Positions 3,388-61,292 of a stretch of 64,000 bases of DNA are shown here, piece by piece (within the stretch, counting starts at the first letter, position 1; every line of letters starts with the position of its first letter). Under the pieces are notes generated by a model, which was given only the letters and a program-made list of their open reading frames with translations, did not search any database and was not told the origin of the DNA. Position numbers and translations under genes: made by a program. This stretch comes from an uncultured Bacteroidales bacterium (GTDB lineage: Bacteria > Bacteroidota > Bacteroidia > Bacteroidales > Paludibacteraceae). The stretch covers positions 1 through 64,000 of the forward strand of contig CAIWCC010000125.1 of the NCBI GenBank assembly GCA_903911085.1, written 5' to 3'.

Positions 3388-3450
3388 CAAAGAAAAACAA
3401 AATAAACTTTTATGGCATGCGAAAAACTGATTTTTAAATGCGATGAACTG
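3388..3450 (-). promoter_or_regulatory. Shared 21-bp direct-repeat operator and -7 box (copy D)
   Basis: On the + strand GAAAAACTG (3421-3429) and GATGAACTG (3442-3450) are 21 bp apart. Read on the - strand they precede a TTTCTTTG element (3395-3388), a -7-like box, with 25 nt between. The pair matches four other sites in the window and sits about 70 nt upstream of the surface-protein start at 3351. The rest of 3352-3598 shows nothing else that I can support. Confidence 0.6.
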
Positions 3451-3598
3451 ATTTATTTTTTCTCAATCATTTTTGAGTGGTCTTTATCCAACCACTAGTT
3501 TTACTGAACTTTTGGCTTTGATAAATATCGTGCTTTTAGTATGTGCTTGCAAACCAATTGTAACTATGATCAATAATGTCCATAATGTTTTTTTGTTT

Positions 3599-5390
3599 TT
3601 ACAATTTAAAAAACGGATTCATTACAATAACCTTGCGTCGTGATTCGGGTGTTACTTTTAAGGATAGCACTTTACCATTTTTTACACTTAGCTCAATAAT
3701 AGTGTGTTGCGGAGCATGAAGTTTGAAATCAACATCCCATTTCACTGGCCAGGTTGGTAATAAATATATTTTTCCATCTTTTTCGCCTTTTGGCAATTCA
3801 GGCAAAATATTCAATAAATTTGCAAAATAGGCTTTTTCATCTAACGAAACAAGCTTAACAGGAAGTTTAGTCAACGCATCGCACAAGCGACGCAAACCAG
3901 CAACCACTTCGATGGGATTTTTTGCTCCAATCAATAATTCAATAGAATTAGCAGGATAAATACATAATTTACCAACTGAATCAAGTTCACTTCCCGTGAG
4001 GCGTTTGGTTTCGTTGCGGTAATACGAATCGTAAAAACGAACCGTGCTCTTTATCCATTCTATATCGGGTTCAATGTTTTTACCCAAGGTAGCGTAACCA
4101 TGCAGCGCCATCCAAGCGTTTTCGAGCATCATAGCAAAAGCATAAGTTTACATTGTCCTGTAGGTGTGGGATTCCATGTAAGCCCCCAAGCCTGAATTGC
4201 TTCGGGATAAACTACGCCCTGCGCACCAAGACCTTTAGCTCTTGAAGCTGCCGAAGTGGCATGCATGCGGTAAAAAGCATTAGAAGGTTCTAATAAATCG
4301 GTATCGCCGGCTAAAATTATTGGCCAACCCAACCAGCGTTGATTTTGTGCCATAAAACCACAAACCAACCAGTGGCGAAGGTCGGGCGAAGATGGATCGA
4401 TGCGTTTTCGGTTAGTGTCACCATTATTCCCAGTGACTTTATTAAAATTATCAACCGTAAAAATTCCGCCATTAAAAAGCAGTGGCAACTGACCATTCTG
4501 ATTGCAAGCCAACATATAACGGAAAAGTTGATAGTTGCGCCCAACAATCCATGCCGAATCGGTATTGCTTCTAGCTGTATTAATATGAATATATGAACGG
4601 CTCCAGAATTCGTTCCAGGGTTTAGCTTCTTTGACTGCAACCGATTGAAGTGTGGAAGGTTTTAGTAATTCCTTAGCAGCTGAAAGCCATTTTTCGGGTT
4701 GCTGCTTTTTACCAGCATGCAACGCAACAACAATGGTATGCGATTTTTCAGCAGCGGTTGTCATACTCCATGCAGCACCTTTCCAACATTGCCAATTCAC
4801 AGGTGTTTTTGCTAGTGGAGTGAGAGCTCGATTACAGACAATGACACCACCAAACACATTATTTTTGGTAGGATTATTAATGCTTTCGGGGCTAATCGAC
4901 TGTTTTTTCAACTCACTTACGAGCGACGATGGATAGTTGGCGTTGCGGTGATTCCAGACAATGCCTTTATTGCTCATATTCACACTATCAGCACGTACAA
5001 TTTGCCTCTGATTTCCCATGTCAATAAGCATGCTATCGCGAGTAACATCCCGCCAGTTGCCAAAACTTATTTCGAAAGCTGTTTTTTGTTTGGATACCGA
5101 TTCGATAATCAGATTTTCGTCGGCAAACCAAAGTTTCATTTTCAGGTTTGCACCATTTTTCGAAACGGCATAAATCGAAATTTTCCCAGAATAAATATCT
5201 AACTTTTGAATAAACGAAGTCAAATTGGATAAAGCACCGTTAGACGGTGTAATACTCGTCCCGAAAGTGGCATCGACTCCCAGGTATCATCCGAAGGAGA
5301 GTTCCAAGTTACATTCATCAATATTTTTCCGGCAAAAATATTGATGAATGTAAAAAATAGAAAAATTATAATGGCGATTTTCTTTTTCAT
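3599..5390 (-). pseudogene. DUF5703-type glycan enzyme, broken by internal deletion and frameshifts
   Basis: Three - strand frames are pieces of one gene. The first starts at ATG 5390 with a signal peptide (MKKKIAIIIF...) and the family motif WNSPSDDTWESMPLSG, then runs out of frame to a stop near 5220. The second frame resumes around PSNGALSNLTSFIQKLDIYSG and covers the central part (GRNYQLFRYMLACN, a FNGG motif, AQNQRWLGWP, VVYPEAIQAWG) until a stop at 4129. The third begins at TYAFAMMLENAWM and runs to 3599. DUF5703 proteins normally have some tens of residues between MPLxG and the LTSFxQKLDI segment, including a DENGRLLKLG-type motif. That stretch is absent, so a real deletion with frame change is likely near 5240-5260. 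The second break at about 4140 is a one-base loss, perhaps in a short A run (AAA for AAAA). It follows the GH3 gene by 7 nt and is last in its operon. Confidence 0.7.
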
Positions 5391-5397
5391 CAACTTT

Positions 5398-19749: not shown

Positions 19750-19811
19750 CAAAGAAACTGCAAAAAACTGAATAATTCGACGATAAACTGATTAAAAAAT
19801 GAGACAAACTG
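19750..19811 (-). promoter_or_regulatory. Shared direct-repeat operator and -7 box (copy C)
   Basis: On + there are GATAAACTG (19782-19790) and GACAAACTG (19803-19811), 21 bp apart. A weaker third copy, AAAAAACTG, lies at 19762-19770. On - a TTTCTTTG -7-like box lies at 19757-19750, 24 nt beyond the proximal good repeat. The site lies 96-157 nt upstream of the sulfatase at 19654 and just downstream of a dead beta-helix gene, so it starts a new operon. Confidence 0.65.
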
Positions 19812-21740: not shown

Positions 21741-21786
21741 AAATGACTGTATATTAATTATTTAATTAATTAGATTTATTTAAAAT

Positions 21787-23181: not shown

Positions 23182-23190
23182 TTTGAATAT

Positions 23191-25803: not shown

Positions 25804-25807
25804 ATAC

Positions 25808-26923: not shown

Positions 26924-26952
26924 TAAGAATAGAATTTAAGGAATGTTTATTG

Positions 26953-29043: not shown

Positions 29044-29080
29044 ATCATGAATTCGTTAGTTTGTTAATTTTATTTTCGAA

Positions 29081-31669: not shown

Positions 31670-31731
31670 CAAAGAAACAAAAATATTCTTTCATTGAATG
31701 TGATAAACTGATTGAATGATGAGATAAACTA
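31670..31731 (-). promoter_or_regulatory. Shared direct-repeat operator and -7 box (copy A)
   Basis: On + GATAAACTG (31702-31710) and GATAAACTA (31723-31731), 21 bp apart. On - a TTTCTTTG -7-like box lies at 31677-31670, with 24 nt between. A second candidate box, TATTTTTG (31685-31678), fits TAnnTTTG exactly. The repeats begin 58 nt upstream of the GH16 start at 31644, the same distance as in copy B before the other GH16 gene. Confidence 0.7.
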
Positions 31732-34774: not shown

Positions 34775-34824
34775 ATTAGTTTTAATTTTATTGAAAAATT
34801 GAAAAATTGAGTAATCTATAAATA

Positions 34825-36151: not shown

Positions 36152-36184
36152 TGTATTTGCGATTTAATATTAAGAAGACATTCA

Positions 36185-38500: not shown

Positions 38501-38550
38501 AATTATTTAGTTATTAAGTACTCAAAAATTATCTTCAAAGTTAAACATTT

Positions 38551-42209: not shown

Positions 42210-42235
42210 ATTGATTGAATTAACGAATCAAATAA

Positions 42236-42272
42236 AACTACAGCAATTATTCTGCTAATAATTGCTGTAGTT
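42236..42272 (-). terminator. Perfect 16-bp hairpin terminator after GH29
   Basis: AACTACAGCAATTATT (42236-42251) and AATAATTGCTGTAGTT (42257-42272) are exact inverted arms with a 5-nt loop. On the - strand the hairpin is followed by TTTTATTTG, a T-rich run, as in a Rho-independent terminator. It stands between the GH29 stop (42286) and the GH2 start (42209). The TTTATTTG right after it (42236-42229) also resembles a -7 box, so it may separate two units or attenuate read-through. Confidence 0.75.
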
Positions 42273-42285
42273 AGTTTACATAGTT

Positions 42286-43974: not shown

Positions 43975-43991
43975 TTGATTTTATAGATATT

Positions 43992-45614: not shown

Positions 45615-45674
45615 GGAATGAATGTGATTTAATAAGTATAAATAATTTGAAATAAAATTGCTGTGATTTATGTA

Positions 45675-46541: not shown

Positions 46542-46607
46542 AAACAAAGTAACTAAAAAATTAATTACTTTGTTTGCGACAAACTGATTGTAAAATGTGA
46601 TAAACTG
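46542..46607 (-). promoter_or_regulatory. Shared direct-repeat operator, -7 box and inverted repeat (copy B)
   Basis: On + GACAAACTG (46578-46586) and GATAAACTG (46599-46607) are 21 bp apart. On - TTACTTTG (46552-46545) is the -7-like box, 25 nt away. An 11-bp perfect inverted repeat (arms 46542-46552 and 46565-46575, 12-nt spacer) overlaps the box. The operator ends 2 nt past the stop of the preceding gene (46610) and lies 58 nt upstream of the GH16 start, as in copy A. Confidence 0.7.
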
Positions 46608-46609: not shown

Positions 46610-47977
46610 TTATTTCTGGTTCTCGGACAGTTTGAAAACTGGATATTTACTATTACGTCCAATCTTTGAGAGTTTTAGCATTTCGTTTTGACTTAATCCC
46701 TTATTAAAGACTGCTACACCACCAAAATAGGCCGACAAAGTAGCATGTCGGTTGCTGTGAATTACTCTACCAATGGTAAAAGGTGAACCATCTGATTCAT
46801 TTTGTGGCGAATAAATATCTTTGCCAAACCAATATGGATTTGCTTTAATGGCTACAAGCTCAAAAGATGCAATATTGCTGAATTTTCCTTTGCTGTCTTT
46901 TTGCAAGGTTAATCTTACTTTCGTAAATTCGAATTCACGAATAACAATGCGCTCACTGTTAGATTCAGAAATGACTTTCTCACTCAATAGTTTACTTTCT
47001 GGTGGGCAATAATATTGATCCTTGGGAAATTGGTCATTTTCACCATCCTGCAATCCAACTATTTTCGAAAGTCGAGCTTGTTTCCAGGCATTTGCGGCAT
47101 GTTTGTAAAATGGATGATTCACAGGATTTTCAATCCAATACTCCGTTGTTTTGCCGTCTAAATAGGCGGTGACCGTTTTCTTTTTATTGTCGTAAACAAA
47201 GCCCACTACCGACCAGCAAGCATTCAGTGCATCGATAGTTACATTGGCAGGTGCTTTGGTTATTTTTTCTTTTGTGGTAGCCAATTGGCGGGCATAATGA
47301 TCGCCAAAAGAAGAAAGGCCATTTTCGGACACATGAGCACTAACACTACCGGGATTGGCGCTCAAACCTGCAAACATGCCGTATTGACGCTGTCCCCTTA
47401 CTTTCAATTCAGCAGGAATACCTCTTGGCGGCGAGTCAGTTCCTTCGTGCCAAAGTCCAGCAATGGCGTGGGCACCATCCTGATAAATCATCCAAACCAC
47501 CATCGAAACTGATTGGCCGGGACCTTTTACATCAATAGGTGTGTTGTTCAAATTGGCGCGTGGCAACATCAAAACAGGTAATTCAGTTACACTTTTAGGT
47601 GATTTAAATTGCACCGCCTGCCCAAAAGGACCGTAGCCAAACAAAGGAAAATCATCCAAATTTGCTTCAGCACCATCATTCCAGAATGCACGGGAGATAT
47701 TCCGTGGTTCCAAAATGTAACGATGGTCATCGCCTTTTGCGGTATAAGCCATAAAGTTTCCTTTGCCATTTACACCATCTTCGCGCAACACAAAATCCCA
47801 AAAAGCGGCTAACCCAGGCATGTTACGCACCAACTGTACTCGTTCATTGTAGGTCTTTGTCTGTTTTGATTGTTTTTTTAAATTATTGCCTTGACCGAAA
47901 CTTTGTAACTGAAAGCTAGTCAAGACCATAATTCCAAACATCAACACAGTTTTTAATGATAAAAATTTAAAGTGCAT
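46610..47977 (-). CDS. Secreted ConA/LamG-like protein of unknown function
   Basis: A protein of 455 aa from the ATG at 47977. The frame continues upstream to 48058, but only the internal Met gives a clean signal peptide (MHFKFLSLKTVLMF..., ending SFGQ). I do not recognise a named enzyme family. A concanavalin-like (LamG) fold is suggested by PGQSVSMVVWMIYQDG, VTAYLDGK and the closing GGVAVFNKGLSQNEMLKLSK, a LamG hallmark. A segment LAAFWDFVLREDGVNGKG opens the domain. Its place behind a beta-helix enzyme and before a GH16 operon suggests glycan binding or a lyase/hydrolase role. No sorting tail is seen. It starts 26 nt after the beta-helix gene. Confidence 0.75.
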   Translation of the reverse strand: MHFKFLSLKTVLMFGIMVLTSFQLQSFGQGNNLKKQSKQTKTYNERVQLVRNMPGLAAFWDFVLREDGVNGKGNFMAYTAKGDDHRYILEPRNISRAFWNDGAEANLDDFPLFGYGPFGQAVQFKSPKSVTELPVLMLPRANLNNTPIDVKGPGQSVSMVVWMIYQDGAHAIAGLWHEGTDSPPRGIPAELKVRGQRQYGMFAGLSANPGSVSAHVSENGLSSFGDHYARQLATTKEKITKAPANVTIDALNACWSVVGFVYDNKKKTVTAYLDGKTTEYWIENPVNHPFYKHAANAWKQARLSKIVGLQDGENDQFPKDQYYCPPESKLLSEKVISESNSERIVIREFEFTKVRLTLQKDSKGKFSNIASFELVAIKANPYWFGKDIYSPQNESDGSPFTIGRVIHSNRHATLSAYFGGVAVFNKGLSQNEMLKLSKIGRNSKYPVFKLSENQK

Positions 47978-48002
47978 TGTCAAATTTTTTACTAAATAGC
48001 AT

Positions 48003-50198
48003 TTATTTAATTTTATACAACAATACTGCAAAATCTCCTGATACTTTTTCTTCGCCATTTACAATCCAATATTTACATACGTCAATTACGGGTTTACCAA
48101 AAGCTATTTCGTTACTTTTTCGGTTAAAATTCTGAATAAGAACGTTTTTAGAATTTTCAATTACAATAATGGCTCTGTCTACTTCTTTTTCCAATTGGTA
48201 GTTCCCAGAACCTCCAATTAATTGAATGTCTTCACAATTAACTATATTCAATAATTCGCCAGAAAGTTCATACTTAAAGCCATAAACAGTTACATGTTTT
48301 GCATTTTCAAGTAACGTTTGCGTTGAATTTGGCAAATGTTCGATACTAAGTTGATAAAAAGTTAAAGGTTGGGTGGTGTTATTTACCTGTAACAAATTAA
48401 ATTTTTTGGATTTGCCACCTCCACCAACAGGAATATGATCGGTACATAAATGATATACTTTTCCACTGGCATTTTCTGAAAAGTAAATATATGGTAGCTC
48501 AGCAGGATTTAGTTGTTCAAATGTTTTCGGTTTTTTTAGTTTTACAGTTTCTGTAACTACATCACGTACCAATGTGTTGGCTGTTTGGATGTGTAGATAG
48601 GTCATACGCGGAAATCCTAAAATTGCAAAATCGCTCAACAATAAATTCCCTGTTGAACTATTTTCGCTATTCAATATTGCCCCCAATTCGTTTTTCCATT
48701 CGTTGGCTGCATGAATGACCGAAATAAATTTACCAGCTCCAATCATTTTCAACCCACTTTTTAATGTTATAGGTTGTCTGATATGGAAATGCCCACGGGG
48801 AATAAAAACCGTTTTTCCAAAATTAGGATTACCTTGCGTTGTTGCTTGGTCAATCGCTTTTTGAATAGCTGGTCCATCATCATCGTTATCAACAATATTT
48901 TCGGGAGTTGCACCAAAATCTTTTGCAATATCCAGTATATTTGTATCATCCCATTCGGGTAATTTGCTCCAAGTGTGTTTGGCAATCAAGTTCTTAGAAG
49001 GATCTTGTGCAACCAATGGTTCATAAAGCTGAAAATGAGCTGTTTGGTTGTTTAATTCTTTACCGGCTACAAATACCGAAGCTTTGTCAAGCTCCGAAGT
49101 AAAAACATAGCTCGAAATTTTTTGCCATTTGCTTGCGAGTCCATTCACAATTTTTGCAGGAGGATTTACTGCTCCACTTTCTATTACTTCGGATGCTTTT
49201 ACAAATACATTATTCATAGTCACATCTTGCGCAAAATTGTAAATAGCCTTACCCGATGCACCTTTCATTTCAATAGTTCCGTCGGTTAGGCATAAATTTG
49301 AATTTCCGTGGTCAACGCGACCATTGGCAGTTATTGTCCGTATATTTTTTAAATAAACTGCCCTGTAATCTTTACTTGGTTTTGCAGGACTTGTAATTTT
49401 AAATCCTGTCACAATTACCGGGCCTCTCGATTCTATAACTTTTAATCCACATTCGCTTTGATTTTCGAGCGTTAAGCCAATAATTGTAGGGTTTGGACGG
49501 TATAGATTCTGTAATATACCAATCTTTCCACCGCTAATGCTTAAATTTACCACTCCACCACCCGAACCTGGCAAACTGCAAATTCCTACATTGAATTGAC
49601 TTCCATAGATTTTTACATCTTCAATCACACAATGTTGTGCACCAGCCATTGAAATGGCATTTACGGTGGGATTATTTCCCATATCAACATTAATACCACG
49701 TAAAGTAGAACCATAAAGCGACGGAGAATTTGGTTTTCCATCCGTAATAAGTTCGAAATAAATAAAAATATTGCGGTCGACTACACTGCTGTCTTTCAAC
49801 TTAATAATGGGTGTTTTACCCTTAGAAGAACCGATTAGCTGATAAGCAAATTTTCGTGAGCCAGTTTTTGTAGTAACACATTTTAGCTGTTTACTTATCA
49901 AAAATGTTTTGTTTGCTGGAAAAAACGAAACCAAGTTACAATTATATGCATCATCCAAAGCCTGCTGAATAGCATTTGAATCATCCGTTTTTCCGTCTCC
50001 AATTGCATTGTAGGGTGGTTTAGTAACATCTATATACCCTTTTTCTAAGGGTTGATATTTTTGGTTTAGTTTCAAACTTTCGGGAAAGTCAGCTGGATTG
50101 ACGTTTTTTTGAATCTCCATGCCTCCCGCCAAACAAGCTGTATTATGTAAAAAAAGTAGAAGTACGATAAGACTTACTATTTTATTTTTGTTTCTCAT
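48003..50198 (-). CDS. Double right-handed beta-helix glycan enzyme without sorting tail
   Basis: A protein of about 731 aa from the ATG at 50198. The frame begins earlier (50243), but the stretch in front is hydrophilic and this Met starts the signal peptide. It has two Pectate_lyase_3-type helices, opening with GYIDVTKPPYNAIGDGKTDD and with DDDGPAIQKAIDQAT ... GKTVFIPRGHFHIRQPITL. The same tandem layout is found in GH55, and the same segments occur in the T9SS-tailed paralogue at 23191-25803 (RGINVDMG, NAISMAGAQHCVIEDVKIYG, VTMNNVFVKAS). It ends at FAVLLYKIK with no tail. Activity is inferred as an exo-glycosidase or lyase. Confidence 0.85.
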   Translation of the reverse strand: MRNKNKIVSLIVLLLFLHNTACLAGGMEIQKNVNPADFPESLKLNQKYQPLEKGYIDVTKPPYNAIGDGKTDDSNAIQQALDDAYNCNLVSFFPANKTFLISKQLKCVTTKTGSRKFAYQLIGSSKGKTPIIKLKDSSVVDRNIFIYFELITDGKPNSPSLYGSTLRGINVDMGNNPTVNAISMAGAQHCVIEDVKIYGSQFNVGICSLPGSGGGVVNLSISGGKIGILQNLYRPNPTIIGLTLENQSECGLKVIESRGPVIVTGFKITSPAKPSKDYRAVYLKNIRTITANGRVDHGNSNLCLTDGTIEMKGASGKAIYNFAQDVTMNNVFVKASEVIESGAVNPPAKIVNGLASKWQKISSYVFTSELDKASVFVAGKELNNQTAHFQLYEPLVAQDPSKNLIAKHTWSKLPEWDDTNILDIAKDFGATPENIVDNDDDGPAIQKAIDQATTQGNPNFGKTVFIPRGHFHIRQPITLKSGLKMIGAGKFISVIHAANEWKNELGAILNSENSSTGNLLLSDFAILGFPRMTYLHIQTANTLVRDVVTETVKLKKPKTFEQLNPAELPYIYFSENASGKVYHLCTDHIPVGGGGKSKKFNLLQVNNTTQPLTFYQLSIEHLPNSTQTLLENAKHVTVYGFKYELSGELLNIVNCEDIQLIGGSGNYQLEKEVDRAIIVIENSKNVLIQNFNRKSNEIAFGKPVIDVCKYWIVNGEEKVSGDFAVLLYKIK

Positions 50199-50289
50199 AT
50201 AGTGTTTTTTAACGGTTGTTTTTTCTTTTAAGGTGTAATTCATTTATTCAATTTATTAAATATTTTGTTTTTTGGTATTAAAACTCAGT

Positions 50290-50371
50290 GGTTTTTGAGT
50301 ATTCCTTAGAGCATTTTGTGTAATAGCTATACCACAAAGAAACACAAATATTTTACACAAAGTTGCACTAA
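50290..50371. repeat. Degenerate intergenic repeat, related to 7699-7779
   Basis: This segment of the 255-nt gap upstream of the beta-helix gene is rich in TTTGTG/CACAAAG words and aligns by eye with 7699-7779 in the other large - strand gap. It has an imperfect inverted repeat around TAGCTATA (TTTTGTG against CACAAAG). It is probably a common Bacteroidota intergenic repeat. No -7 box is clear in it. Confidence 0.4.
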
Positions 50372-50388
50372 AAACACAGAATAACTTC

Positions 50389-50434
50389 TCAAAAAAAGGA
50401 AGAGACTATACAATTATGAATAAGCCTCTTCCTT
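50389..50434 (-). terminator. Hairpin plus T-tract terminator of the SusCD operon
   Basis: AAGGAAGAG (50396-50404) and CTCTTCCTT (50426-50434) are exact 9-nt arms with a 21-nt loop. On the - strand the stem runs into an uninterrupted T run (complement of the A run 50391-50397). It lies 65 nt after the stop of the SusE-like lipoprotein gene, so it ends the susC-susD-susC-susD-lipoprotein unit and isolates it from the beta-helix gene. Confidence 0.7.
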
Positions 50435-50498
50435 AATAATCGAAAGAATGTTAACTAAAGAAATCTTCTTTATATTTCAAAAAGTGATTCAAAAATAA

Positions 50499-51377
50499 TT
50501 ACTGCCACTTTTCTACTTTTAATGGAGAATCAAAATGATAAAGTGTATCTAAAACATGGTGTTGTACACCTGTTTTTGTGTAGGAATAATCTAGCGTGAA
50601 AACCTTTTTAGTCTTATCATATTGCCCCGTACCTGATATGTTAGTCATATCTTTTAAAACCCCAGGTATAATAGTAACAGAACCATCGGTTTTAATCTGA
50701 AGTTTCAGCTTGTTAGCACCTGTTAAATCGGCGCCAATATAAGGCACTGAGCATGAATCTTTTGCCAGTGTAGTGATTAATTTGTTAGTATTTTTAACAA
50801 GGTCTGCATTTGAATACTTAAATGAACTTGCAATTTGTCCAGTTGTATTGAGCGTGTGGTCAACTCCCTTAACCCAATATGCACCATAATACTTATTTTG
50901 ATACTTAATAGCAATGATTGTTGAATCTTTGCCTGCAAGAATCGAATCAAGAGTGGTTCCGGTTATTTTAAGCGGAAGTGCATAATTCAATAAATGTGCT
51001 TTAGGATCATTTATAAACTTTTCGTTTAATGTAATTGTCACCTTACCTAAAATTTGATCTTTAGGAATATCCATTTGATTAGGGTTAGAAATAGTGTAAT
51101 AATCAGCAGGTAACAAGGTCAACTGCGGATAATTCGCCAACAAAGTTGGTCGAACCTCGAAATTTACTACTTCATTTGCTTTGTTTTCGTATACCCCAGC
51201 CAATACAACGCCCACTTCCATGCTTAACTCATCCTTACCATCTTGAACTATTAATGTTCTTAATGGACTTTGAAGTGCAAAGTAAGTTGCAGTATAATCG
51301 AAATCTAACTTGTAATCGTCGTAACATGATGATAATAAGAACATCAAAACGATTGGAATTAATACTATTTTTTTCAT
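50499..51377 (-). CDS. SusE-like surface glycan-binding lipoprotein (DUF1735 type)
   Basis: A 292-residue lipoprotein. The lipobox is LSSC with Cys18, followed by YDDYK, an acidic stretch like the surface lipoprotein export signal of Bacteroidota. The N-terminal domain (GVVLAGVYENKANEVVNFEV, LLPADYYTISNP) is of the DUF1735 type found in surface glycan-binding proteins. The C-terminal half (IKTDGSVTIIPGVLKDMTNISGTG, YDKTKKVFTLDYSYT) is like DUF4361. It would bind the polysaccharide outside the cell next to the SusCD porin. It is last in the operon, 21 nt after susD and before the terminator. Confidence 0.88.
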   Translation of the reverse strand: MKKIVLIPIVLMFLLSSCYDDYKLDFDYTATYFALQSPLRTLIVQDGKDELSMEVGVVLAGVYENKANEVVNFEVRPTLLANYPQLTLLPADYYTISNPNQMDIPKDQILGKVTITLNEKFINDPKAHLLNYALPLKITGTTLDSILAGKDSTIIAIKYQNKYYGAYWVKGVDHTLNTTGQIASSFKYSNADLVKNTNKLITTLAKDSCSVPYIGADLTGANKLKLQIKTDGSVTIIPGVLKDMTNISGTGQYDKTKKVFTLDYSYTKTGVQHHVLDTLYHFDSPLKVEKWQ

Positions 51378-51398
51378 TTTCGTTGATTTTTATTGTTA

Positions 51399-53162
51399 TT
51401 ACCACCCCTCGTTTTGGGTGAGATTAGTTGCTTTGTATAATTCTGTAATTGGTAATGGACAATAATACTTTGTATTGCTGAATGGCAAAGTTAATAAATT
51501 TACTTTTTCGTAGGTGTATGTTCCAACAACAGCAGTAGGAGTAATCTTAATCCTCTGAATGGTTGTGTTTAACGGATCTTTCCAACGACGTAAATCATAG
51601 AAACGATGTCCTTCGAAACAAAGTTCAATACGACGTTCGTTTTTGATTAATGTACGAAAATTAGAGGCTGAAGCTGCCTGTTCGATCAAATAATTATCGG
51701 CACTTACAGGAGCTATACCAGCTCTTTTTCTAACTTCAGCAATGGCATTTTGTGCAGTCATACCTTTTATCGCTGTGGTTGGACCAACTGCTTCGTTGGC
51801 TGCCTCAGCAAAATTTAAGTACAATTCAGCTTGACGAAATGCAACTCCATAATGAAAATCATTGGTGGTGCTACCTGGTACAAGATTAGCTTTTGAACTT
51901 ACCCATTTACGGAGATAATAACCTGTGCGCGTACTGTTTTCTATGGTTGCTCGTCCAAAACCCGCCATATCTTTTCCACCTTCAAAAGTTTCCACTTTTG
52001 TAGTTTTAAATGTTGCACCATTAAACAGTATTGACATATAAAAGCGCGGATCCCTGCTTAAGTACATATTTGTTTCCGAGTAACCAGTTTTTGCAACATC
52101 CGCTGTAATCGGATATCCATTAGCCATTGGGAACGCATCAACTAAATTTTGGGTTGGATTACAATTCCCAGAACCGTAGATAGAAGGAAGAAAATTCCTA
52201 GTAGCCATAGCTAAATCTCCAGAACTTGTGCCGACCATTCGACGCAAAATTAATTCAGCACTCTGCGGGTCATTATAAAACTTTGCCGAAATGTTAGTTA
52301 CATCATAAATTCGGGGTAAACCAAAACCAATCGAATCGATAGCTTCCTTAGCTGTTTCAGCAGCAGTTCTCCATTTCTGAGTTTTCTCAGCATCACTTAA
52401 ACCATCAGTAAATGCAGGACTTGCTTCGTATAAACGAAGACGCGATTTAAGAGCTAAACATGCTACATCAGTTGGTCGACCTAAGTTATCCTGATTTGAA
52501 TACTTAAAGGTTGTTTTATCCCATGATTTAGGAAGATAAACCATGGCACTATCAATATCAGTAACAATTTGTGCCACACATTCGCTGTAAGTATTTCTAG
52601 CTAAATTTGGAATGTCGGTTGTACTTAAAAGAGTTGTAACAATAGGGAAACCCATCATTTTTCCATTCACATCTTTACCACCAAAAGTTTTAAGAAGTTC
52701 AAACTCACAATAAGCTCGAAGAAAATAGGCTTCGCCCATTGTAATTTTTGTAAACTGGTTGTTATCTGCATCGCCTGTCTTTTTAAACCTAATATTATAT
52801 TTTTTCATTATGTCGAAAAAATTATTAAGGTCACGTATATCTTCATATCGGGCATTCCAGATATTGAGTGGATTATTCGTTGCACTCCAATAGGTAGGTA
52901 ATTCTACCATTTTGTTAATGTTTGATGCCAAAATATTGGTAAGTGCATCATCTGTTGCACACTCAAGAAAACCACCGCTCACGCCTTCGAATGATGATGG
53001 TATCACTCTATAAACATAGTTAACTAAACCCCTAACCATATCAGGCTGTGTTATCATCTGTTCATAAGTCACTTCATCGGATATTTTCGGATCAAGAAAA
53101 TTCTCACAAGAAGAGAGTACAAACATCATCATTGTTAATAATAGAAATGAATTATATTTCAT
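51399..53162 (-). CDS. susD: SusD-like nutrient-binding outer-membrane lipoprotein (pair 2)
   Basis: A 587-residue SusD/RagB protein. The lipobox is LSSC (Cys19), followed by ENFLDPKISDEV, typical of SusD starts. The TPR-like part has AYFLRAYCEFELLKTFGG (a SusD hallmark), and the C-terminal part has INFAEAANEA-like and LIKNERRIELCFEGHRFYDLRRWKDP, another hallmark. It forms the lid of the neighbouring SusC porin and captures oligosaccharides. It starts 39 nt after its susC and is 21 nt before the SusE-like gene. Confidence 0.95.
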   Translation of the reverse strand: MKYNSFLLLTMMMFVLSSCENFLDPKISDEVTYEQMITQPDMVRGLVNYVYRVIPSSFEGVSGGFLECATDDALTNILASNINKMVELPTYWSATNNPLNIWNARYEDIRDLNNFFDIMKKYNIRFKKTGDADNNQFTKITMGEAYFLRAYCEFELLKTFGGKDVNGKMMGFPIVTTLLSTTDIPNLARNTYSECVAQIVTDIDSAMVYLPKSWDKTTFKYSNQDNLGRPTDVACLALKSRLRLYEASPAFTDGLSDAEKTQKWRTAAETAKEAIDSIGFGLPRIYDVTNISAKFYNDPQSAELILRRMVGTSSGDLAMATRNFLPSIYGSGNCNPTQNLVDAFPMANGYPITADVAKTGYSETNMYLSRDPRFYMSILFNGATFKTTKVETFEGGKDMAGFGRATIENSTRTGYYLRKWVSSKANLVPGSTTNDFHYGVAFRQAELYLNFAEAANEAVGPTTAIKGMTAQNAIAEVRKRAGIAPVSADNYLIEQAASASNFRTLIKNERRIELCFEGHRFYDLRRWKDPLNTTIQRIKITPTAVVGTYTYEKVNLLTLPFSNTKYYCPLPITELYKATNLTQNEGW

Positions 53163-53201
53163 AATTTCTTATTTTTTGAATTATTGAAAATTAATTATTG
53201 T

Positions 53202-55982
53202 TTAAAAAGAAACCTTTAATCCCAATGAAACAGTCTTAAACATAGGGTATTTAGTAAGTCCGGCATTCGAATCCTCTGAATCAAGATCTTTTATAGTAGA
53301 GAAACTCAATAGATCGGTACCGCTAATATATAACTTTGTTTGACTTAAAGAAATCTTTTTCAGCAAACTCTCTGGCAACATATAGCTAATTTCAGCAGTC
53401 CGCAATTTAAAATATGAACCATCAGTCATCCAGAATGAAGAGTTTCTTAAACTGTGACTTGTTGATGAAGTTGTTAATCTTGGATAATCGGCTCTTAAAA
53501 CTTGAGTTGAATACTTTCCTTCACCCAAATTCCAGTAGTACGAGTTGTTCAACATTTTGTCAACTTCGGAAATTCCTTGTCCTACTAAATAAACTTCAAA
53601 TCCTTTGTATTTCAAGTTTAAATTTACACCATAGTTTATCGTTGGAAATGAATGTCCGATTTGTGTTTGGTCATAACCATCAATAACATTATCACCCAAA
53701 TCGTTAACGATATTTGCAAGTTTAAGATCACCTGGACGAATTAAACCATATTGAGATTTAACACCATAAGCATCAATATCAGCTTGATCGGTATATACAC
53801 CATCATAGACCCAACCAAAAATTGCATCGGTTGTTTTGCCTGTTCTGTTCAGTTGCGAATATATGTTAAATTCGTCAAGTATCTCGTTTACCGATTTGGT
53901 ATACATGAAATTTCCACCTACACTAAATGAAAAGTCCTTACCAATTGATTTGCTGAAGTCGATGCTAACATCAACTCCTTTATTGCTAATAGCATTATAA
54001 TTAGCAGTTGGCGAAATATTGCTCACATAACCAGGCACTTTGTTGCTCAATACAGTTGGGATATCATAACGATATTGCTCAAAGTAATTGGCTTCTAAAG
54101 TCAATGAATTTTTAAATAATCGTGCTTCAATCCCAAAATTTGATTCTCTCGATTTTTCAAAAGTCATGTTCGGATTGCCTAATTTCGAAAGTGTGTATCC
54201 ATAAATTGTTGAAGTAATTGCAGCATTGTTAATCCCAAAACGTTGCATATTGCCTGACGCATATTGATCATCGGATAGATAATAACCAACTGAATTGTCG
54301 TACCCCATTACCCCATAACTGCCTTTTAGTTTTAAATAATTAACAACAGAAGAGCCTTTTAGAAAGCTTTCGTTAGAAATAATCCAACCTGCACCAGCAC
54401 TACCAAAAAGTGCATATCTATTTCCTCTTGTAAACCTGTCAGATCCCATTAGTGAAGAAGTTGCCTCAATAACATATCTGTTGTCGTACGCATAATTTAC
54501 TTGTAGGCCCAAGTTGACGTTTTTATCATCCTGCACTGTTCCAGTAGCATCTTCAATGGTTTTCAATGATAGAGACCGTGTAGCCAAAACAAGATTTGTC
54601 AATATACTGTGTTTGCCAAAATCTCTAGCATAATTTAGGTTTGCATTTAATGCCACATTCCGAAAGAAATCGTCACTCAACTTAGCTTCAGTACCTTTTA
54701 CATCATCAGTACCAACTCTGACTAAAGAATCCTCACGAATAACATTGAAACTTGAATATTGTAAGGTTTTTCCCATTTCTATAGCGTTATATGCATCGAA
54801 CCCCACGTTAACAGCAGCAGTAAGTCCTTTTAAATAACTGTTGAAATCGAATTTCATACCGATGTTGGTTTGTACACGATAGGTTTCGCTATTCACATAA
54901 CCACCGCGTGCCAAATCACCATACAGGTTAGTTTGCCCAGCCCTTGCACTCCGTCCCAATGAGTCAGTGTTTCCACGCATTCCTACAAAAAAAGGATAAT
55001 CGTTTGGTCTACTTGTCGACATGGACGAGAACATATTTGCAGAAGAAACATTGGATCTAGAACGTAATCCCATTCGACCCGAAATGTCAAGATTCATACT
55101 TATTATTTTACTAACCTTGTAGTCAAGATTACTCATCAAATTCAAGAGATTGAACTGGTTTTGTTTACCAACTGCTTCGAGTCCACCTTCGTTGATGTAT
55201 TCAACATTAAAGAAATACTTTGTATTGTTGTCGCCACCCACTAACGAAGTATTTACTCGTTTAAAGTCTGATTGATCTTTAAGGAACGTTCCATAATAAT
55301 CTTCATCTGGATATTTGCGAGGTGAAGTTTGGTTTTTATAAAGTTCAATTACCTCAGGTTTATAAGTATTTGCAGCAACATCCAAGCCATCGTTTAACCG
55401 TGCTTGGTTGTAATAATTTGCATAATCGACTGCGCCTAAAAACTTAGGCAGCGCAACGGGAGTTTTCATACCGCTTTCCACCGAAATCGACATTTTTTTC
55501 TTCATTTTCATTCCACGCTTGGTGGTTACCATAAGCACGCCATTGGTGGCAGCACTTCCATACATCATTTTAGCTGTAATATCTTTCAGAACAGTTATTG
55601 ACTCGATAGATTCCATCGAAAGATCAGATAAATTCCTGTTTGGTATTCCATCTATTACCACCATAGGAGCATCGCTGGCACCACCACGTGAACGTCCGCG
55701 AACTTTAAAACTTGCTCCCGATGAACCAGGTTCTCCAGAATATTTAAATACATAGAGTCCTGATACCAACCCAGATAATGCTGCATTGGCATTATATTCA
55801 GTTGAATGACGTAACATATCACCACTAATTACATCTATAGCGCCAACAACCCGATCTTTAGCAATTGAAGTATATGGAAGTTGTGTTTTTTTAGAAGCAG
55901 CATTACTTACCGTGTCATTCTGCCCCGAAACGTAAGAGGAGAATGTAATTAATAAAAGTAATGCTATTATTGATTTATTCAT
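53202..55982 (-). CDS. susC: SusC-like TonB-dependent porin lacking the N-terminal extension (pair 2)
   Basis: A 926-residue outer-membrane TonB-dependent porin that imports oligosaccharides, from the ATG at 55982 (four residues after the longest frame start). After the signal peptide (ending VSGQ) the plug domain begins almost at once with AIDVISGDML. It has the SusC signature PMVVIDGIPNRNLSDLSMES, ITVLKD, YGSAATNGVLMVTTKRG. The CarboxypepD_reg (plug-preceding) domain that the other SusC has at residues about 10-95 is missing. The barrel ends KTVSLGLKVSF. The shorter form may couple differently to TonB or to SusD; this is inference. It is 28 nt after the first susD. Confidence 0.93.
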   Translation of the reverse strand: MNKSIIALLLLITFSSYVSGQNDTVSNAASKKTQLPYTSIAKDRVVGAIDVISGDMLRHSTEYNANAALSGLVSGLYVFKYSGEPGSSGASFKVRGRSRGGASDAPMVVIDGIPNRNLSDLSMESIESITVLKDITAKMMYGSAATNGVLMVTTKRGMKMKKKMSISVESGMKTPVALPKFLGAVDYANYYNQARLNDGLDVAANTYKPEVIELYKNQTSPRKYPDEDYYGTFLKDQSDFKRVNTSLVGGDNNTKYFFNVEYINEGGLEAVGKQNQFNLLNLMSNLDYKVSKIISMNLDISGRMGLRSRSNVSSANMFSSMSTSRPNDYPFFVGMRGNTDSLGRSARAGQTNLYGDLARGGYVNSETYRVQTNIGMKFDFNSYLKGLTAAVNVGFDAYNAIEMGKTLQYSSFNVIREDSLVRVGTDDVKGTEAKLSDDFFRNVALNANLNYARDFGKHSILTNLVLATRSLSLKTIEDATGTVQDDKNVNLGLQVNYAYDNRYVIEATSSLMGSDRFTRGNRYALFGSAGAGWIISNESFLKGSSVVNYLKLKGSYGVMGYDNSVGYYLSDDQYASGNMQRFGINNAAITSTIYGYTLSKLGNPNMTFEKSRESNFGIEARLFKNSLTLEANYFEQYRYDIPTVLSNKVPGYVSNISPTANYNAISNKGVDVSIDFSKSIGKDFSFSVGGNFMYTKSVNEILDEFNIYSQLNRTGKTTDAIFGWVYDGVYTDQADIDAYGVKSQYGLIRPGDLKLANIVNDLGDNVIDGYDQTQIGHSFPTINYGVNLNLKYKGFEVYLVGQGISEVDKMLNNSYYWNLGEGKYSTQVLRADYPRLTTSSTSHSLRNSSFWMTDGSYFKLRTAEISYMLPESLLKKISLSQTKLYISGTDLLSFSTIKDLDSEDSNAGLTKYPMFKTVSLGLKVSF

Positions 55983-56010
55983 ATTGTTTTTCATTAAATA
56001 AATTATAAAA

Positions 56011-57888
56011 TTACCAACCTGGATTTTGTTCGAACTTGCTCATCATATTTCTCGTAGATGTTGGGAAAGGGTACCAATAATGTTTATTTTCAAACACCCT
56101 AGCGGCAGTTGTAAGTTGCTGTTTTCCAAAATTAAATCCACCACTTCCGTTTGAAGTAATATATGCTCCCCAAATTCCTTTTGAAAGGACTTCTTTTGCA
56201 ACTCTCCAGCGTTTTAAATCCCACCAGCGGTGTTCTTCCGAATATAATTCACGAGCACGTTCCAACCGAATATATTCGCGGAATTTTTCTTTACTTGCAT
56301 AATATTCTGGTTTTACAATTGGCATTTCTACTCTGTTGCGTACGATATTTATAGCATCAACAGCAGTCAAATTACCAATAACATCTGAACCTGTTGGTGC
56401 TATAACAGGACCATTAAGTTCGTTCGCAAGTTCTGCATAATCGAGGTAAAGCTGTGCATATCTGATAAATGGAAATATGCGAGCGTAGCCTGTTACGTTA
56501 TCAGATAAATTATTTCCTGGCCATCTGAATTTTCCAGCGGTAAAATAACCGGTAAAAATGGCATTAGCTGTACCTTCATATTTAAAATGCTTACCATCGG
56601 GTTGATTGGCTTCCAGATTTTTTGGAAGACCGCCTACGTTCGAAGTTGTTTTGAGTGTAAGCATTGCATCACCATGGCAAAAAATGAATTTCTTAAGTCT
56701 TGGGTCGCGATTGTCATAAGGCATTGCAGGGTTCCAAGTACTTCCTTTGGCTATTGCATCCTCCAATTGCCAACCATCTTTAGTTTCGAACCATTCCACA
56801 GCATTATGCGTGGGTACACTATATGAGCCAGCCCAACCACCATCAAAACCAGGCAAATACCAAGCAGTACCGTTACCTGATTGCTGCATGTAAGCTTGTT
56901 GTGAAGCAATAGGTGGCTGAAAAATAGCTTCATCACTCACAGCGTCACGACCTAATCTGTAAAAATTAAGATTATAATCGGCTGTGCTATACATCTTGTA
57001 ACGATTACCTGTTTTTTGTGCACTTTCAAGTGCTTCAATACAAGTTTTCATAGCTTCGGCAGCAATGGTTAAGTTGTATTCTGGAGTGCCATTAAACGAA
57101 AGACTTTGGGCACGTGGGATATTTGAATTTGGACTTGCAGCATACAATAAAATCATTTCTTTCACCGCCTTAGCTGTTGTTATAGTTACCCGTCCATTGT
57201 CTTTCGATGCAGTTTTATTCCAGTTTTCTGGAAGATAACTTATGGCGCTGTCCAAATCTTGAACTGCCCACTTACTCGATTCCTGATATTCTGGTCGGTA
57301 TTGATCAAAATCTGCATCGGACAAAAATGACTTTTGCATGTTAGGTAGTCCACCAAAGTCGCGGATAAGCATAAAGTAAAACCAGCCACGTAAAAAGTAA
57401 GCTTGACCAATTAATTGATTTTTAAGTTCCACGCGAGTATATTCCGCCTCTGGAGGAAACTTAGTCAATAAATTTGCATTTTCCAACGCCAGGTTACAAG
57501 CTCTGATTCCAGCAGCCGCTTCGGCCGGAACTTCACGGTACCTATGTCTCATATCAAATTCTTCACCATCAAGTGTCCATCTAAAACCAGGCAAATTGCA
57601 ATCCAACCAGTTTCCTTTGTTCACCCGAGTACAAATGCCGTTTCCAGCACTAACATGTTGGGCTTCATCGCCGTAGCAACCAATTTCGCCACCAAAATCC
57701 ATCCTATCGTAAACGTAATTATGTAGTAATCCATTTGCACGATCCAAAAAGCCTTTAAAATTGTAATAATCGCCAAAAACTTTCTCATTTGTAATTCCCA
57801 TTTCAGGGCTTTGGTCGAGATATTCTTCGCATGAGAAAAATATCGGTGCCAAAAGTAATATCAAAATATAACTATATTTCTTTTTCAT
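56011..57888 (-). CDS. susD: SusD-like nutrient-binding outer-membrane lipoprotein (pair 1)
   Basis: A 625-residue SusD/RagB protein. The lipobox is FFSC (about Cys20), then EEYLDQSPEMGITNEKVF. Hallmarks are QAYFLRGWFYFMLIRDFGGLP and YIRLERARELYSEEHRWWDLKRWRVA. It would sit on the 57911 SusC as its lid. The sequence is clearly different from the second SusD, so the pairs probably bind different oligosaccharides. Spacing is 22 nt to its susC and 28 nt to the next one. Confidence 0.95.
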   Translation of the reverse strand: MKKKYSYILILLLAPIFFSCEEYLDQSPEMGITNEKVFGDYYNFKGFLDRANGLLHNYVYDRMDFGGEIGCYGDEAQHVSAGNGICTRVNKGNWLDCNLPGFRWTLDGEEFDMRHRYREVPAEAAAGIRACNLALENANLLTKFPPEAEYTRVELKNQLIGQAYFLRGWFYFMLIRDFGGLPNMQKSFLSDADFDQYRPEYQESSKWAVQDLDSAISYLPENWNKTASKDNGRVTITTAKAVKEMILLYAASPNSNIPRAQSLSFNGTPEYNLTIAAEAMKTCIEALESAQKTGNRYKMYSTADYNLNFYRLGRDAVSDEAIFQPPIASQQAYMQQSGNGTAWYLPGFDGGWAGSYSVPTHNAVEWFETKDGWQLEDAIAKGSTWNPAMPYDNRDPRLKKFIFCHGDAMLTLKTTSNVGGLPKNLEANQPDGKHFKYEGTANAIFTGYFTAGKFRWPGNNLSDNVTGYARIFPFIRYAQLYLDYAELANELNGPVIAPTGSDVIGNLTAVDAINIVRNRVEMPIVKPEYYASKEKFREYIRLERARELYSEEHRWWDLKRWRVAKEVLSKGIWGAYITSNGSGGFNFGKQQLTTAARVFENKHYWYPFPTSTRNMMSKFEQNPGW

Positions 57889-57910
57889 GATTTCTATTTT
57901 TACTGTTTAA

Positions 57911-60900
57911 CTATAATGAAAAGCGCATTCCTAAGTTATACCTTTTTGTAATTGGATAAACTTCAAGTTTGTTTGCTTCAGGGTCAAATTGTTTTGGAAG
58001 CGAAGACCATGTAATAAGGTTGTTTCCATTCAAATAGATTTCTAAATTTTTGACAACTTGTAGCCATTTAGCATCTTTGGAATTTACACTATACTTCAGT
58101 TCAAGATTGCGGAGACGTAAAAAATCACTTCGTCTAAATGTATACGTGCTGGCACTTGAGTTATATTTATTATCTAAAGTATGTAAAGCTGGATGTGTGG
58201 CTGTTAAATTATCTGGCGTCCAGTAATTTTTCATCTCAGTGTCTGTCATAGCAAAGTTAATACCGCCTGTGGAACTGAATTCCCATAAATAAGCCGAAGA
58301 TAGCTCTTTAGAAATATCCATCATGCCATTGAACATAGCAGATAGTGAAAACTGTTTATAAGTGACACCAAGATTAAATGCAAAAGACTTTGTAGCATAC
58401 GAAGGATTCCCGATTGGGGCGCGATCTAATTGGTCAATTTTACCATCTGCGTTATAATCCATAAATGAGAAGTCACCTGGTATTAAGTTTGTTACAATGG
58501 TTTGTGTATTGTTGTACGCATCGTCCCAACTGCCCAACAATCCATTGTCGATATAACCCGATGACCAGCCAATAGGTTTGCCTGCTTGTTTTTGATATTC
58601 GGGAGTATAAATTGGGTCGTCTCTATCAACAATTCTGTTTTCGCTAATGGAGAAATTCCCAGATAAATAATAATCCCAATCTTTGTTGATCTTTCCGTTA
58701 TATTTCAATTCAAAATCAATACCATGATTTTTTGTTTTCCCAATATTAGCATCCGGAAATACATTACCATATAAACCAGGTATAGTTCTGCGGGTCATTA
58801 GAATTCCTGTACGTTTTTCATCAAAAAAGTCAATTGTAGATCTCAATTTACCACCTAAGAATGTCATTTCAATACCTAAGTTTTGTTTCGTTGATGTTTC
58901 CCAAGTTGCATTGGCGTTAGCAGGTTTTCCTTCAAGATAAAGTATTCCGTTGTTACCCATTGCAGTTAATGTGTTTCCATAACCGCCAGGGTAGCCATTT
59001 TCACCAGCCACGTAACCAACAGGTCCTGGATTGTAGCTCGAAATATAAGTAAAGCGTGATGCACCAAGATCGCTTCCTATTTTACCCCACGAATATCTTA
59101 CTTTCATGAAATTAATGAAGTTCACATTGTTCTTAAAAATAGATTCTTCTGAAAGCACCCAACCTGTAGCAAGTGAAGGAAAAAATCCAAAACGAAGTCC
59201 GGGTGCAAATTTTTCGCTACCATTATATGCTGCGTTAATTTCAGCCAAATATTTTGACTTATATGCGTAAGTTGCTCTACCAACCCAACTTTCCTCAAAA
59301 CTTGGGAAGCTGGCTCCACTTCTGGCTGTTCGGCGACTTACCAAAGCAAGACCTGAAAATGCATGGCCTTTAATTTTTTTCTCGTACAGCAACGAACCCT
59401 CATAATATAAACTGCTGCTAAATCCTCCTAGTCCTTCACCATTAAATGTAACTAAGCTGTTTACCAAATCTTGGTCTGTCCCAAACTGTACATATTTCTG
59501 TGTAGCTGGGTCAGATAAATAATAGATAGGGTTTGCAGTAATTGAACTGCCATAAGCACGACTAAAGTTATACGACGCAGAAGCTTTGAAAAGGAAATCT
59601 TTCAAAAATCGTTGTTCAAAAACCATATCACTGAAAATTCGTGTTGAACGCTCCATGTTTTGACCTTCACGTTCCATTTCACCTACATAGTTCATTTTGA
59701 ACCAATCGGAGGCCGCATTGCCAACACCCAACTCACCATTACTTAAAACAGGAGGTGCGCCAACTTGCACTTGTTGATACAATCTGGCTAAGTACTGCTC
59801 ATCACCACCTGTGCCTATTGAACCAATACCATTGCGAGCAGAATATGTAACGCGGTTACCACTCCAGTTTTTAAAATCGCCCGAAAGGTTTACTTTCACC
59901 TTGGTGGTTTTAGTAAATTTAAAATCGAGGTTACTACGCCAGTTATAGCGGCTTTGTGAAGTTCTTGGATCAAACTCCTTTTGTTTTTTGAGATTGAAAA
60001 TATCTCCATCGTAATTGTATCCAAACGATGTGAAATACGTAACAAAATCTTTACCACCCGTTACGTTTACATTGTAGGCGCTTGATTTACCAGTGCCTAT
60101 CATTGTATTCACCCAATTGGTGTACGTATAAAAGTTAGTATCACGGTTAGGATTACGCCACATATCTATTTCACTTTGAGGTCTTAATAAACTGTATAGA
60201 CCATCGTTTTTAGCTGCCACGTTGTAATACTCCAAGGATTTGTCGTATGTATCAAAATAATCTGTTTCAACTGCTGGGCTTTTATGAGTCCAGTTACCTG
60301 TGAACGAAACTTTAGGAGCACCTTTTATACCTCTTTTTGTGGTGATTAGGACAACACCGTTAGCAGCTTTTACTCCATACACAGCTGTGGCAGAAGCATC
60401 TTTTAATACCGAAATAGACTCAACTTCATTTGGATCCAAATCATTAAAGTCTCTTTCTACTCCATCCACCACAAAAAGCGGATTACTATTTACCCAAGAT
60501 GCTTGCCCACGGATAAGAATATTAGCGGCGGTTGCACCTGGCTGTCCAGCAGCTTGCATGGTAGATACACCTGGAAGCAAGCCCGTTAATGCCTCCGAAA
60601 TCGTTGACACATTACCAGCTTTCAGAATTTCCGCACCTGTTGTTTGAGTTATTGAACCCACAACAGTTTTCTTGTTTTGGGTACCAAAACCCACTACAAC
60701 TACATCCTTTAACATCTCAGCATCAGATGCTAATGTTACATTAATACTTGTTTGTTTACCTACCTTTATTTCTTGGGTTTTTAAGCCAATATAACTGTAA
60801 ACCAGCGTAACATTTTGTAAATTCTTTAATGACAATGAGTACGCACCATTTTTGTCTGTAATAGTTCCAACTCCAGCAGAACCTTTTATAAAAACACTCG

Positions 60901-60994
60901 CACCAATTAATGTCTCTCCTTCGTTATCGAACACTTTACCTGTTATTGGTTTTGTTTGACCACTAACTGTGTTCGATGTTAAGGTAACCAACAT
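57911..60994 (-). CDS. susC: SusC-like TonB-dependent porin (pair 1), start displaced by a homopolymer frameshift
   Basis: A full-length SusC barrel: KPITGKVFDNEGETLIGASV (CarboxypepD_reg), then a plug with DVVVVGFGTQNKK, the signature NPLFVVDGVERDFNDLDPNE, VESISVLKDASATAVYG and NGVVLITTKRG, and a barrel closing at YNLGMRFSL. The only in-frame ATG left, at 60994, leaves a truncated signal peptide without charged start (MLVTLTSNTVSGQ). The expected start MKKKWNFKTG... begins at 61046, but the A10 run (61034-61043) puts it one base out of frame, where nine A would be in frame. It is the first gene behind operator copy E. Confidence 0.93.
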   Translation of the reverse strand: MLVTLTSNTVSGQTKPITGKVFDNEGETLIGASVFIKGSAGVGTITDKNGAYSLSLKNLQNVTLVYSYIGLKTQEIKVGKQTSINVTLASDAEMLKDVVVVGFGTQNKKTVVGSITQTTGAEILKAGNVSTISEALTGLLPGVSTMQAAGQPGATAANILIRGQASWVNSNPLFVVDGVERDFNDLDPNEVESISVLKDASATAVYGVKAANGVVLITTKRGIKGAPKVSFTGNWTHKSPAVETDYFDTYDKSLEYYNVAAKNDGLYSLLRPQSEIDMWRNPNRDTNFYTYTNWVNTMIGTGKSSAYNVNVTGGKDFVTYFTSFGYNYDGDIFNLKKQKEFDPRTSQSRYNWRSNLDFKFTKTTKVKVNLSGDFKNWSGNRVTYSARNGIGSIGTGGDEQYLARLYQQVQVGAPPVLSNGELGVGNAASDWFKMNYVGEMEREGQNMERSTRIFSDMVFEQRFLKDFLFKASASYNFSRAYGSSITANPIYYLSDPATQKYVQFGTDQDLVNSLVTFNGEGLGGFSSSLYYEGSLLYEKKIKGHAFSGLALVSRRTARSGASFPSFEESWVGRATYAYKSKYLAEINAAYNGSEKFAPGLRFGFFPSLATGWVLSEESIFKNNVNFINFMKVRYSWGKIGSDLGASRFTYISSYNPGPVGYVAGENGYPGGYGNTLTAMGNNGILYLEGKPANANATWETSTKQNLGIEMTFLGGKLRSTIDFFDEKRTGILMTRRTIPGLYGNVFPDANIGKTKNHGIDFELKYNGKINKDWDYYLSGNFSISENRIVDRDDPIYTPEYQKQAGKPIGWSSGYIDNGLLGSWDDAYNNTQTIVTNLIPGDFSFMDYNADGKIDQLDRAPIGNPSYATKSFAFNLGVTYKQFSLSAMFNGMMDISKELSSAYLWEFSSTGGINFAMTDTEMKNYWTPDNLTATHPALHTLDNKYNSSASTYTFRRSDFLRLRNLELKYSVNSKDAKWLQVVKNLEIYLNGNNLITWSSLPKQFDPEANKLEVYPITKRYNLGMRFSL

Positions 60995-61033
60995 TAATAA
61001 TAGGGAATAAATTAACCCTGTTTTAAAATTCCA

Positions 61034-61046
61034 TTTTTTTTTTCAT
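61034..61046 (-). other. A10 run that breaks the frame at the susC start
   Basis: On - the sequence is ATG, ten A, TGG. With nine A it reads MKKKWNFKTGLIYSLLLMLV, a textbook signal peptide joined to the susC frame. With ten it ends at a TAA eight codons in. This is a sequencing error, a true lesion, or a slippage-prone tract that could be phase-variable or corrected by transcriptional slippage. It is placed exactly at the start codon. Confidence 0.8.
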
Positions 61047-61229
61047 TGTGATTTTTTTAATAATAATCTCAATTAATTTCTCAATTTAATCCTTATTTAT
61101 TTTTTATTTGATAAAATCAATAAAGATATAGATTTAACGAACTCTCTAAACCATTATAAGCATAAATTGTCATGTTTTTTTCTACATTAGTTTATTTTTT
61201 TAGTTTATAAGTATGTGTGATTTGTTCTG

Positions 61230-61292
61230 CAAATATAGTACTCTGGATATCCAAAAATGTGTTACAAACTGTTTTTTATATGTGATAAACTG
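61230..61292 (-). promoter_or_regulatory. Shared direct-repeat operator and -7 box (copy E), SusCD operon promoter
   Basis: On + TACAAACTG (61263-61271) and GATAAACTG (61284-61292) are 21 bp apart. On - TATATTTG (61237-61230) matches TAnnTTTG, 25 nt away. The site begins 20 nt after the SGNH gene stop and implies a leader of roughly 180 nt before the susC start at 61046. The rest of the gap 61047-61229 is AT-rich leader with no other feature that I can support. Confidence 0.7.

Follow-up and report, generated by a model that had tools for sequence, protein, structure and literature searches.

Direct-repeat operators have been described for the hybrid two-component system (HTCS) regulators of Bacteroides thetaiotaomicron. 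In the sections of that work considered here, motifs are predicted for 16 of 36 HTCSs, all of them direct repeats averaging 21 bp, and the repeats are read as sites for dimers bound to one face of the DNA two turns apart (Ravcheev 2013, PMC3878776). Excerpts on two HTCSs, BT4124 and BT4663, report assays of DNA binding in which susCD promoters carrying predicted sites were used (PMC11253607). The primary promoter of Bacteroidota, as given in the part of the source consulted, combines a −7 consensus TAnnTTTG with a TTTG near −33 (PMC7366714). The examined parts of the B. thetaiotaomicron account (PMC3878776) describe no fixed distance to a −7 box, and a limited search of parts of it and of PMC11253607, PMC12125979 and PMC7366714 found no statement of such a distance for HTCS operators.

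Here, we analyze a 64,000-nucleotide stretch of DNA (the window; bases 1–64000 of contig C125, which has 92,436 bases and belongs to a genome of 6.25 Mb in 269 contigs), and we predict with high confidence that the direct repeats within it are the operators of a polysaccharide-sensing HTCS encoded at C125:64453–68427. Sequence alone would thereby link a single HTCS with one operator at nine promoters, and the exact layout, with the operator ending 24–25 nt before the −7 box, would offer a testable general rule for HTCS targets.

The predicted regulon resembles the HTCS regulons of B. thetaiotaomicron (PMC3878776, in part) in its AraC-type HTH, its 21-bp direct repeats and its units at one locus with, as sometimes there, a distant gene; unlike them it comes from another genus and carries another motif, of the CAGTTTRTC type, the comparison being one of layout. 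The predicted regulator falls in the same class as BT4124 and BT4663, although those cases are experimental and concern other loci and motifs (PMC11253607, excerpts). In each respect tested, the putative operators fit the published form of HTCS operators (direct repeat, about 21 bp between tandem sites, a place ahead of units belonging to the cognate locus), a design already known from Bacteroides. Head-to-tail half-sites 21 bp apart also adjoin the promoter at araI, where AraC binds, but AraC is a cytoplasmic one-component regulator of E. coli acting at a sigma-70 promoter, whereas the protein predicted here is a membrane hybrid kinase.

Putative operators and promoter layout in the window

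The initial annotation had listed five direct repeats of GAYAAACTG with a constant spacing, all pointing toward minus-strand units. We confirmed all five (at 3421, 19782, 31702, 46578 and 61263), with a pair spacing of exactly 21 bp in 5/5 and a minus-strand unit behind each. The half-site itself stood in part, being exact in six of the ten copies and imperfect in the other four: operators 19782 and 46578 are perfect pairs (two of five), operator 3421 carries one mismatch per half, and operators 31702 and 61263 have one mismatch each. The repeat is also longer than first noted, with a gene-strand consensus of approximately AAT-CAGTTTRTC-RCA-N6-AAT-CAGTTTRTC-RCA. The sites are listed with their leave-one-out scores under a weight matrix described below.

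Operator 1: 3421..3450, minus strand, precedes the surface protein gene 1–3351 (gene cut by the contig end); 30.5 bits
Operator 2: 19782..19811, minus strand, precedes the run led by the sulfatase 17756–19654; 37.8 bits
Operator 3: 31702..31731, minus strand, precedes the GH16-led run 20247–31644; 32.3 bits
Operator 4: 46578..46607, minus strand, precedes the GH16-led run 33965–46520; 38.7 bits
Operator 5: 61263..61292, minus strand, precedes the SusC/SusD-led run 46610–60994; 28.0 bits

The constant distance claimed for a TTTG-type −7 box also held. TTTG begins at nucleotide 29 or 30 past the operator in all five cases, so that the predicted 8-mer box starts after 24–25 nt.

−7 box of operator 1: 3388..3395, minus strand, TTTCTTTG
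−7 box of operator 2: 19750..19757, minus strand, TTTCTTTG
−7 box of operator 3: 31670..31677, minus strand, TTTCTTTG
−7 box of operator 4: 46545..46552, minus strand, TTACTTTG
−7 box of operator 5: 61230..61237, minus strand, TATATTTG

Among these boxes the full TAnnTTTG occurs at operator 61263 only (TATATTTG), the rest being TTTCTTTG (three) and TTACTTTG (one), and further TTTG tetramers lie near all five window operators, at nt 8, 18, 20, 21 or 36. When the promoters behind all nine operators of this genome and behind three in a second genome of the genus (G019) are taken together, TTTG begins at nt 29 or 30 in 9/9 and 3/3 respectively, hence in 12 of 12, and the full TAnnTTTG is present in 6 of 12. 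Both GH16 promoters place the gene-opening ATG at nt 58 from the operator, as had been noted, while the ORF lister starts these genes at an upstream TTG (31680 for operator 3 and 46547 for operator 4).

We looked for an upstream TTTG 24–31 nt before the −7 TTTG, a zone set from the usual spacing of the two elements, and found it in none of the 12 promoters. Of 101 other TAnnTTTG boxes, however, only 7 have such a TTTG, and in four of the 12 promoters one stands at nt 8, 21–22 nt upstream of the −7 TTTG; its absence from the zone is therefore no proof of activator dependence.

Putative operators across the genome and the units behind them

The repeat geometry had been called unlikely by chance, and shuffling bore this out. 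The two-copy pattern with up to three mismatches has five matches in the window, shuffled sequences average 0.24, and 0 of 100 shuffles reach five. Over the whole genome the same loose pattern gives 40 matches against 31 in a reversed control, near noise, which is what would be seen if AT-rich intergenic sequence happened to look repetitive. We give that explanation a negligible probability, as the shuffles, the constancy of the repeat spacing and of the distance to the box, and two further searches all speak against it: a longer pattern finds 8 matches in the genome and 0 in the reversed control, and a version spaced by 20 bp, run as a spacing control, finds 1 match in the genome and 0 on C125.

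All eight genome matches with at most two mismatches are operators by their geometry, seven on C125 and one on a second contig, C228; one 3-mismatch match on C125 also fits. Four more operators of the same regulator thus very probably lie outside the window, three on C125 and one on C228.

Operator 6: C125:85184, outside the window, 3-mismatch match
Operator 7: C125:86940, outside the window, at most two mismatches
Operator 8: C125:90007, outside the window, at most two mismatches
Operator 9: C228:36924, outside the window, at most two mismatches

Another 31 matches with three mismatches fall outside C125. Among the 21 of them that were checked, 14 lie inside ORFs and none has TTTG at nt 29–30. 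A weight matrix built on the nine genome sites gives leave-one-out scores of 23–39 bits. It was run on C125, on C228 and on the loci of the remaining HTCSs, the rest of the genome being covered by pattern; in the sequence surrounding those HTCS genes (594,084 bases, about 30 kb of them counted twice) its best match reaches 13.2 bits, and its best other match on C228 reaches 16.4. The whole-genome scan that the initial annotation had proposed as a check therefore finds an operator that is not randomly spread, eight of its nine sites lying on the contig that carries the carbohydrate locus and the HTCS gene.

Behind each operator lies a single gene or a codirectional run. Operator 19782 heads the sulfatase-led run, which may reach 3599 with gaps of up to 174 nt and holds three sulfatases, a SASA esterase, a GH2 and two GH3 genes. 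The GH16-led run behind operator 31702 extends down to 20247, that behind operator 46578 down to 33965 (gaps up to 162 nt), and the SusC/SusD-led run behind operator 61263 down to 46610 with one 255-nt gap at 50244–50498. Operator 85184 heads a run of about 24 kb from 85171 to 61312, with no gap above 85 nt; this run includes the HTCS gene and ends inside the window. Operators 86940 and 90007 precede one surface protein each, as does the operator on C228, with the ATG 75 nt away.

End of the codirectional run containing the HTCS gene: 61312..64000, minus strand, GDSL protein 61312–62106 and GH3 62120–64438

The window encodes six sulfatases, two GH16 proteins, two alpha-L-fucosidases, two GH2 and three GH3 proteins, as well as esterases, two pectate-lyase-fold proteins and two SusC/SusD pairs; past it lie a GH95 protein, more pectate-lyase-fold proteins and another GH3. 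The predicted HTCS regulon very probably covers genes for using a complex polysaccharide. The nearest PDB matches of the GH16 protein at 45675 are laminarinases, and our low-confidence guess at the substrate is a sulfated, fucose-bearing galactan. The sulfatase encoded on the plus strand at 31984–33780 carries a T9SS sorting tail; its gene diverges from the GH16 run, and no operator faces it.

We also searched for the 21-bp layout at the remaining HTCS loci. Across 151 upstream regions, a lag of 21 was the commonest before filtering (17 regions, next 14, low-complexity sequence and double counts included) and after filtering at thresholds of 15 (7, next 6) and 14 (8, next 7), but at a threshold of 12 it was exceeded by lags 29 and 37 (15 regions vs 18 and 16, respectively), which gives a hint only that the layout is visible there. 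Repeats of other sequence but with the 21-bp spacing occur upstream of genes in the vicinity of other HTCS genes, at L123:1874 (C246:41874), L143:1567 (C170), L127:10315 (C99:118315) and C269:5665 and 21856 (L136, L137), some with TTTG 27–33 nt past the repeat window; they are candidate operators of those HTCSs.

The HTCS gene and its co-occurrence with the putative operators

The initial annotation had inferred a single activator of HTCS or AraC type that binds one DNA face and whose gene is outside the window. An HTCS gene indeed begins 453 bases beyond the window end, so visual inspection of 64 kb yielded a motif from which a regulator gene lying just outside was rightly foreseen. The statement that the window itself holds no regulator gene also stands: with all 46 contig ORFs of at least 100 aa scanned against Pfam, the HTCS is the only regulator.

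HTCS gene: C125:64453–68427 (L031:453–4427), outside the window, 1324 aa

A single chain matches, in Pfam, Reg_prop, Y_Y_Y, HisKA, HATPase_c, Response_reg and HTH_18, and thus unites kinase, receiver and AraC-type HTH. The sensor (PF07494, E 1.8e-21; PF07495, E 2e-10; matches to 4a2l and 3v9f) is predicted to be of the periplasmic two-component propeller type. In the C-terminal 246 aa, residues 1–244 align with PDB 12aw, a hybrid two-component system protein (E 1.4e-47). The gene sits with SusC/SusD and glycan-degrading genes, and a search of a contig collection with the HTCS returned two distant relatives, 26% identical in Aquimarina and 22% in Ignavibacteriae.

From this arrangement we infer binding, activation, autoregulation and ligand as follows. 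The periplasmic propeller sensor would bind an oligosaccharide of the target glycan, the kinase would phosphorylate the receiver within the same chain, and two AraC-type DNA-binding domains would sit head to tail on the half-sites, which at 21 bp, or two helical turns, apart would place them on one DNA face. The promoter-proximal half-site ends 24–25 nt before the −7 box, at about the position of a −33 element, so bound HTCS may stand in for such an element in recruiting RNA polymerase. A single signal would then induce most of the units in this locus of about 90 kb, together with the surface protein gene on C228. The place of the HTCS gene in the run headed by operator 85184 suggests autoregulation, the gene possibly activating itself through that operator.

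The operators could instead be bound by another AraC-type regulator elsewhere in the genome, with the adjoining HTCS controlling something else. The genome has 46 HTH_18 matches, and one operator lies on C228, which has none; against such a regulator, the HTCS is the sole HTH_18 match on C125. Two comparisons, of genomes and of DNA-binding domains, also count against this alternative, which we judge improbable.

For the first, we compared 48 genomes of the genus, many incomplete (68–100%; G019 87%) and including the present one (G000). The longer pattern with up to three mismatches occurs in 10 of the 48: the present genome has 8 matches, G019 has 3 and eight further genomes have 9 between them, against 0 in the reversed control. 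The three operators of G019 are intergenic, with an ATG at nt 67, 72 or 74, whereas the nine looser matches in the eight other genomes all fall within ORFs and lack a TTTG at nt 29–30. With up to 13 HTCS candidates scored per genome, and among the matches listed, a close relative of the HTCS (77%) is found in G019 only, the others being 29–33% identical over long matches and up to 34% over partial ones. The HTCS and a promoter-type operator thus co-occur, among the matches listed for the 48 genomes, in G000 and G019 only, so that the operator tracks the orthologous HTCS in one second genome. A 200-genome sample of the family (at most two mismatches, G019 excluded) contributed seven outside matches against 1 in the reversed control; all seven lie inside ORFs, 0/7 have TTTG at nt 29–30, and one is already among the nine from the genus.

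Judged by RpoB, which was found in 47 of 48 genomes, other genomes are closer than G019: its RpoB is 93% identical, compared with 94–96% in 15 other genomes with full-length RpoB. Since they were found in G019 and in none of the RpoB-closer genomes, the HTCS and its operators appear to have been kept or moved together with the locus. The absence of the operator from closer relatives in which no close HTCS was found argues against a regulator elsewhere in the genome, although any single absence is weak evidence because many of the 48 genomes are incomplete, and co-occurrence by itself cannot pick the HTCS out from the other genes of a locus that G000 and G019 have in common.

The second comparison concerns the two putative recognition helices, which we take to lie in the HTCS where they do in MarA and AraC. 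In 30 of the 46 HTH_18 matches of the genome (HTCS included) and 29 further loci of the genus, 26 of 27 residues are identical in the HTCS of G019 and at most 17 of 27 at the other 57 loci. No other examined locus therefore matches, again pointing to the neighboring HTCS as the regulator of these operators.

Promoter kinship and the surface protein family

The initial annotation had included the surface protein at 1–3351 in the regulon, which agrees with a relative in G019 (on its contig C412) that has the same operator and box. Members of one protein family, 34–62% identical to this first one, are encoded behind five of this genome's nine operators and behind two of G019's three, and all seven long matches in a family search of the two genomes stand behind an operator; four further matches per genome cover just a short C-terminal part.

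Family member: window 1–3351, behind an operator
Family member: L032:1315–3171, behind an operator
Family member: L032:3299–4864, behind an operator
Family member: L032:5051–7942, behind an operator
Family member: L033:16231–17778, behind an operator

The five paralogs are of secreted type, with near-identical signal peptides (MKTK...) and an N-terminal part in common. Pfam has no match for the three short members and matches the two long ones only further toward the C terminus. For the NCBIfam T9SS sorting domain, three members give one score just above the cut-off, one below it and, for the member cut by the contig end, no match. By eye, no operator was seen within 140 nt upstream of family members in genomes with no close HTCS (two loci in G002, one in G008).

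This kinship raises the question of whether the repeats are operators at all or are merely what is left of promoter cassettes duplicated and dispersed along with paralogous genes. Five of the nine precede one family sharing its signal peptide and, in part, its promoter sequence, and two more precede the two GH16 genes. Similarity beyond the operator is seen in the promoters at 85184 and 86940 (69% and 82% downstream) and partly in the two own GH16 promoters (57% and 55% downstream). Given the paralogy of the surface protein genes and the similarity that some promoters show outside the operator, the nine sites do not count as independent. The sulfatase (19782), SusC (61263) and GH16 promoters, however, are 67–83% identical in the operator and 30–40% in the 30 nt upstream. 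Operator 4 is moreover conserved in G019, ahead of a GH16 gene that is 76% identical, and between the two genomes this promoter has kept the operator (87%) and not the upstream flank (33%), with two downstream stretches at 57% and 45%. On this evidence we consider the remnant explanation very unlikely and retain the reading of the repeats as operators of the HTCS.

More tentatively, the operator and promoter could form a cassette that travels with secreted repeat proteins, so that the regulon grows by scattered copies, one of them on C228, and drives its own HTCS through the run headed by operator 85184, a possibility that we rate as rather doubtful. A transposase gene cut by the contig end (L033:18220–19998, C228:39017–40795) adjoins the operator and surface protein gene on C228, and may have helped to move an operator/surface-protein cassette.
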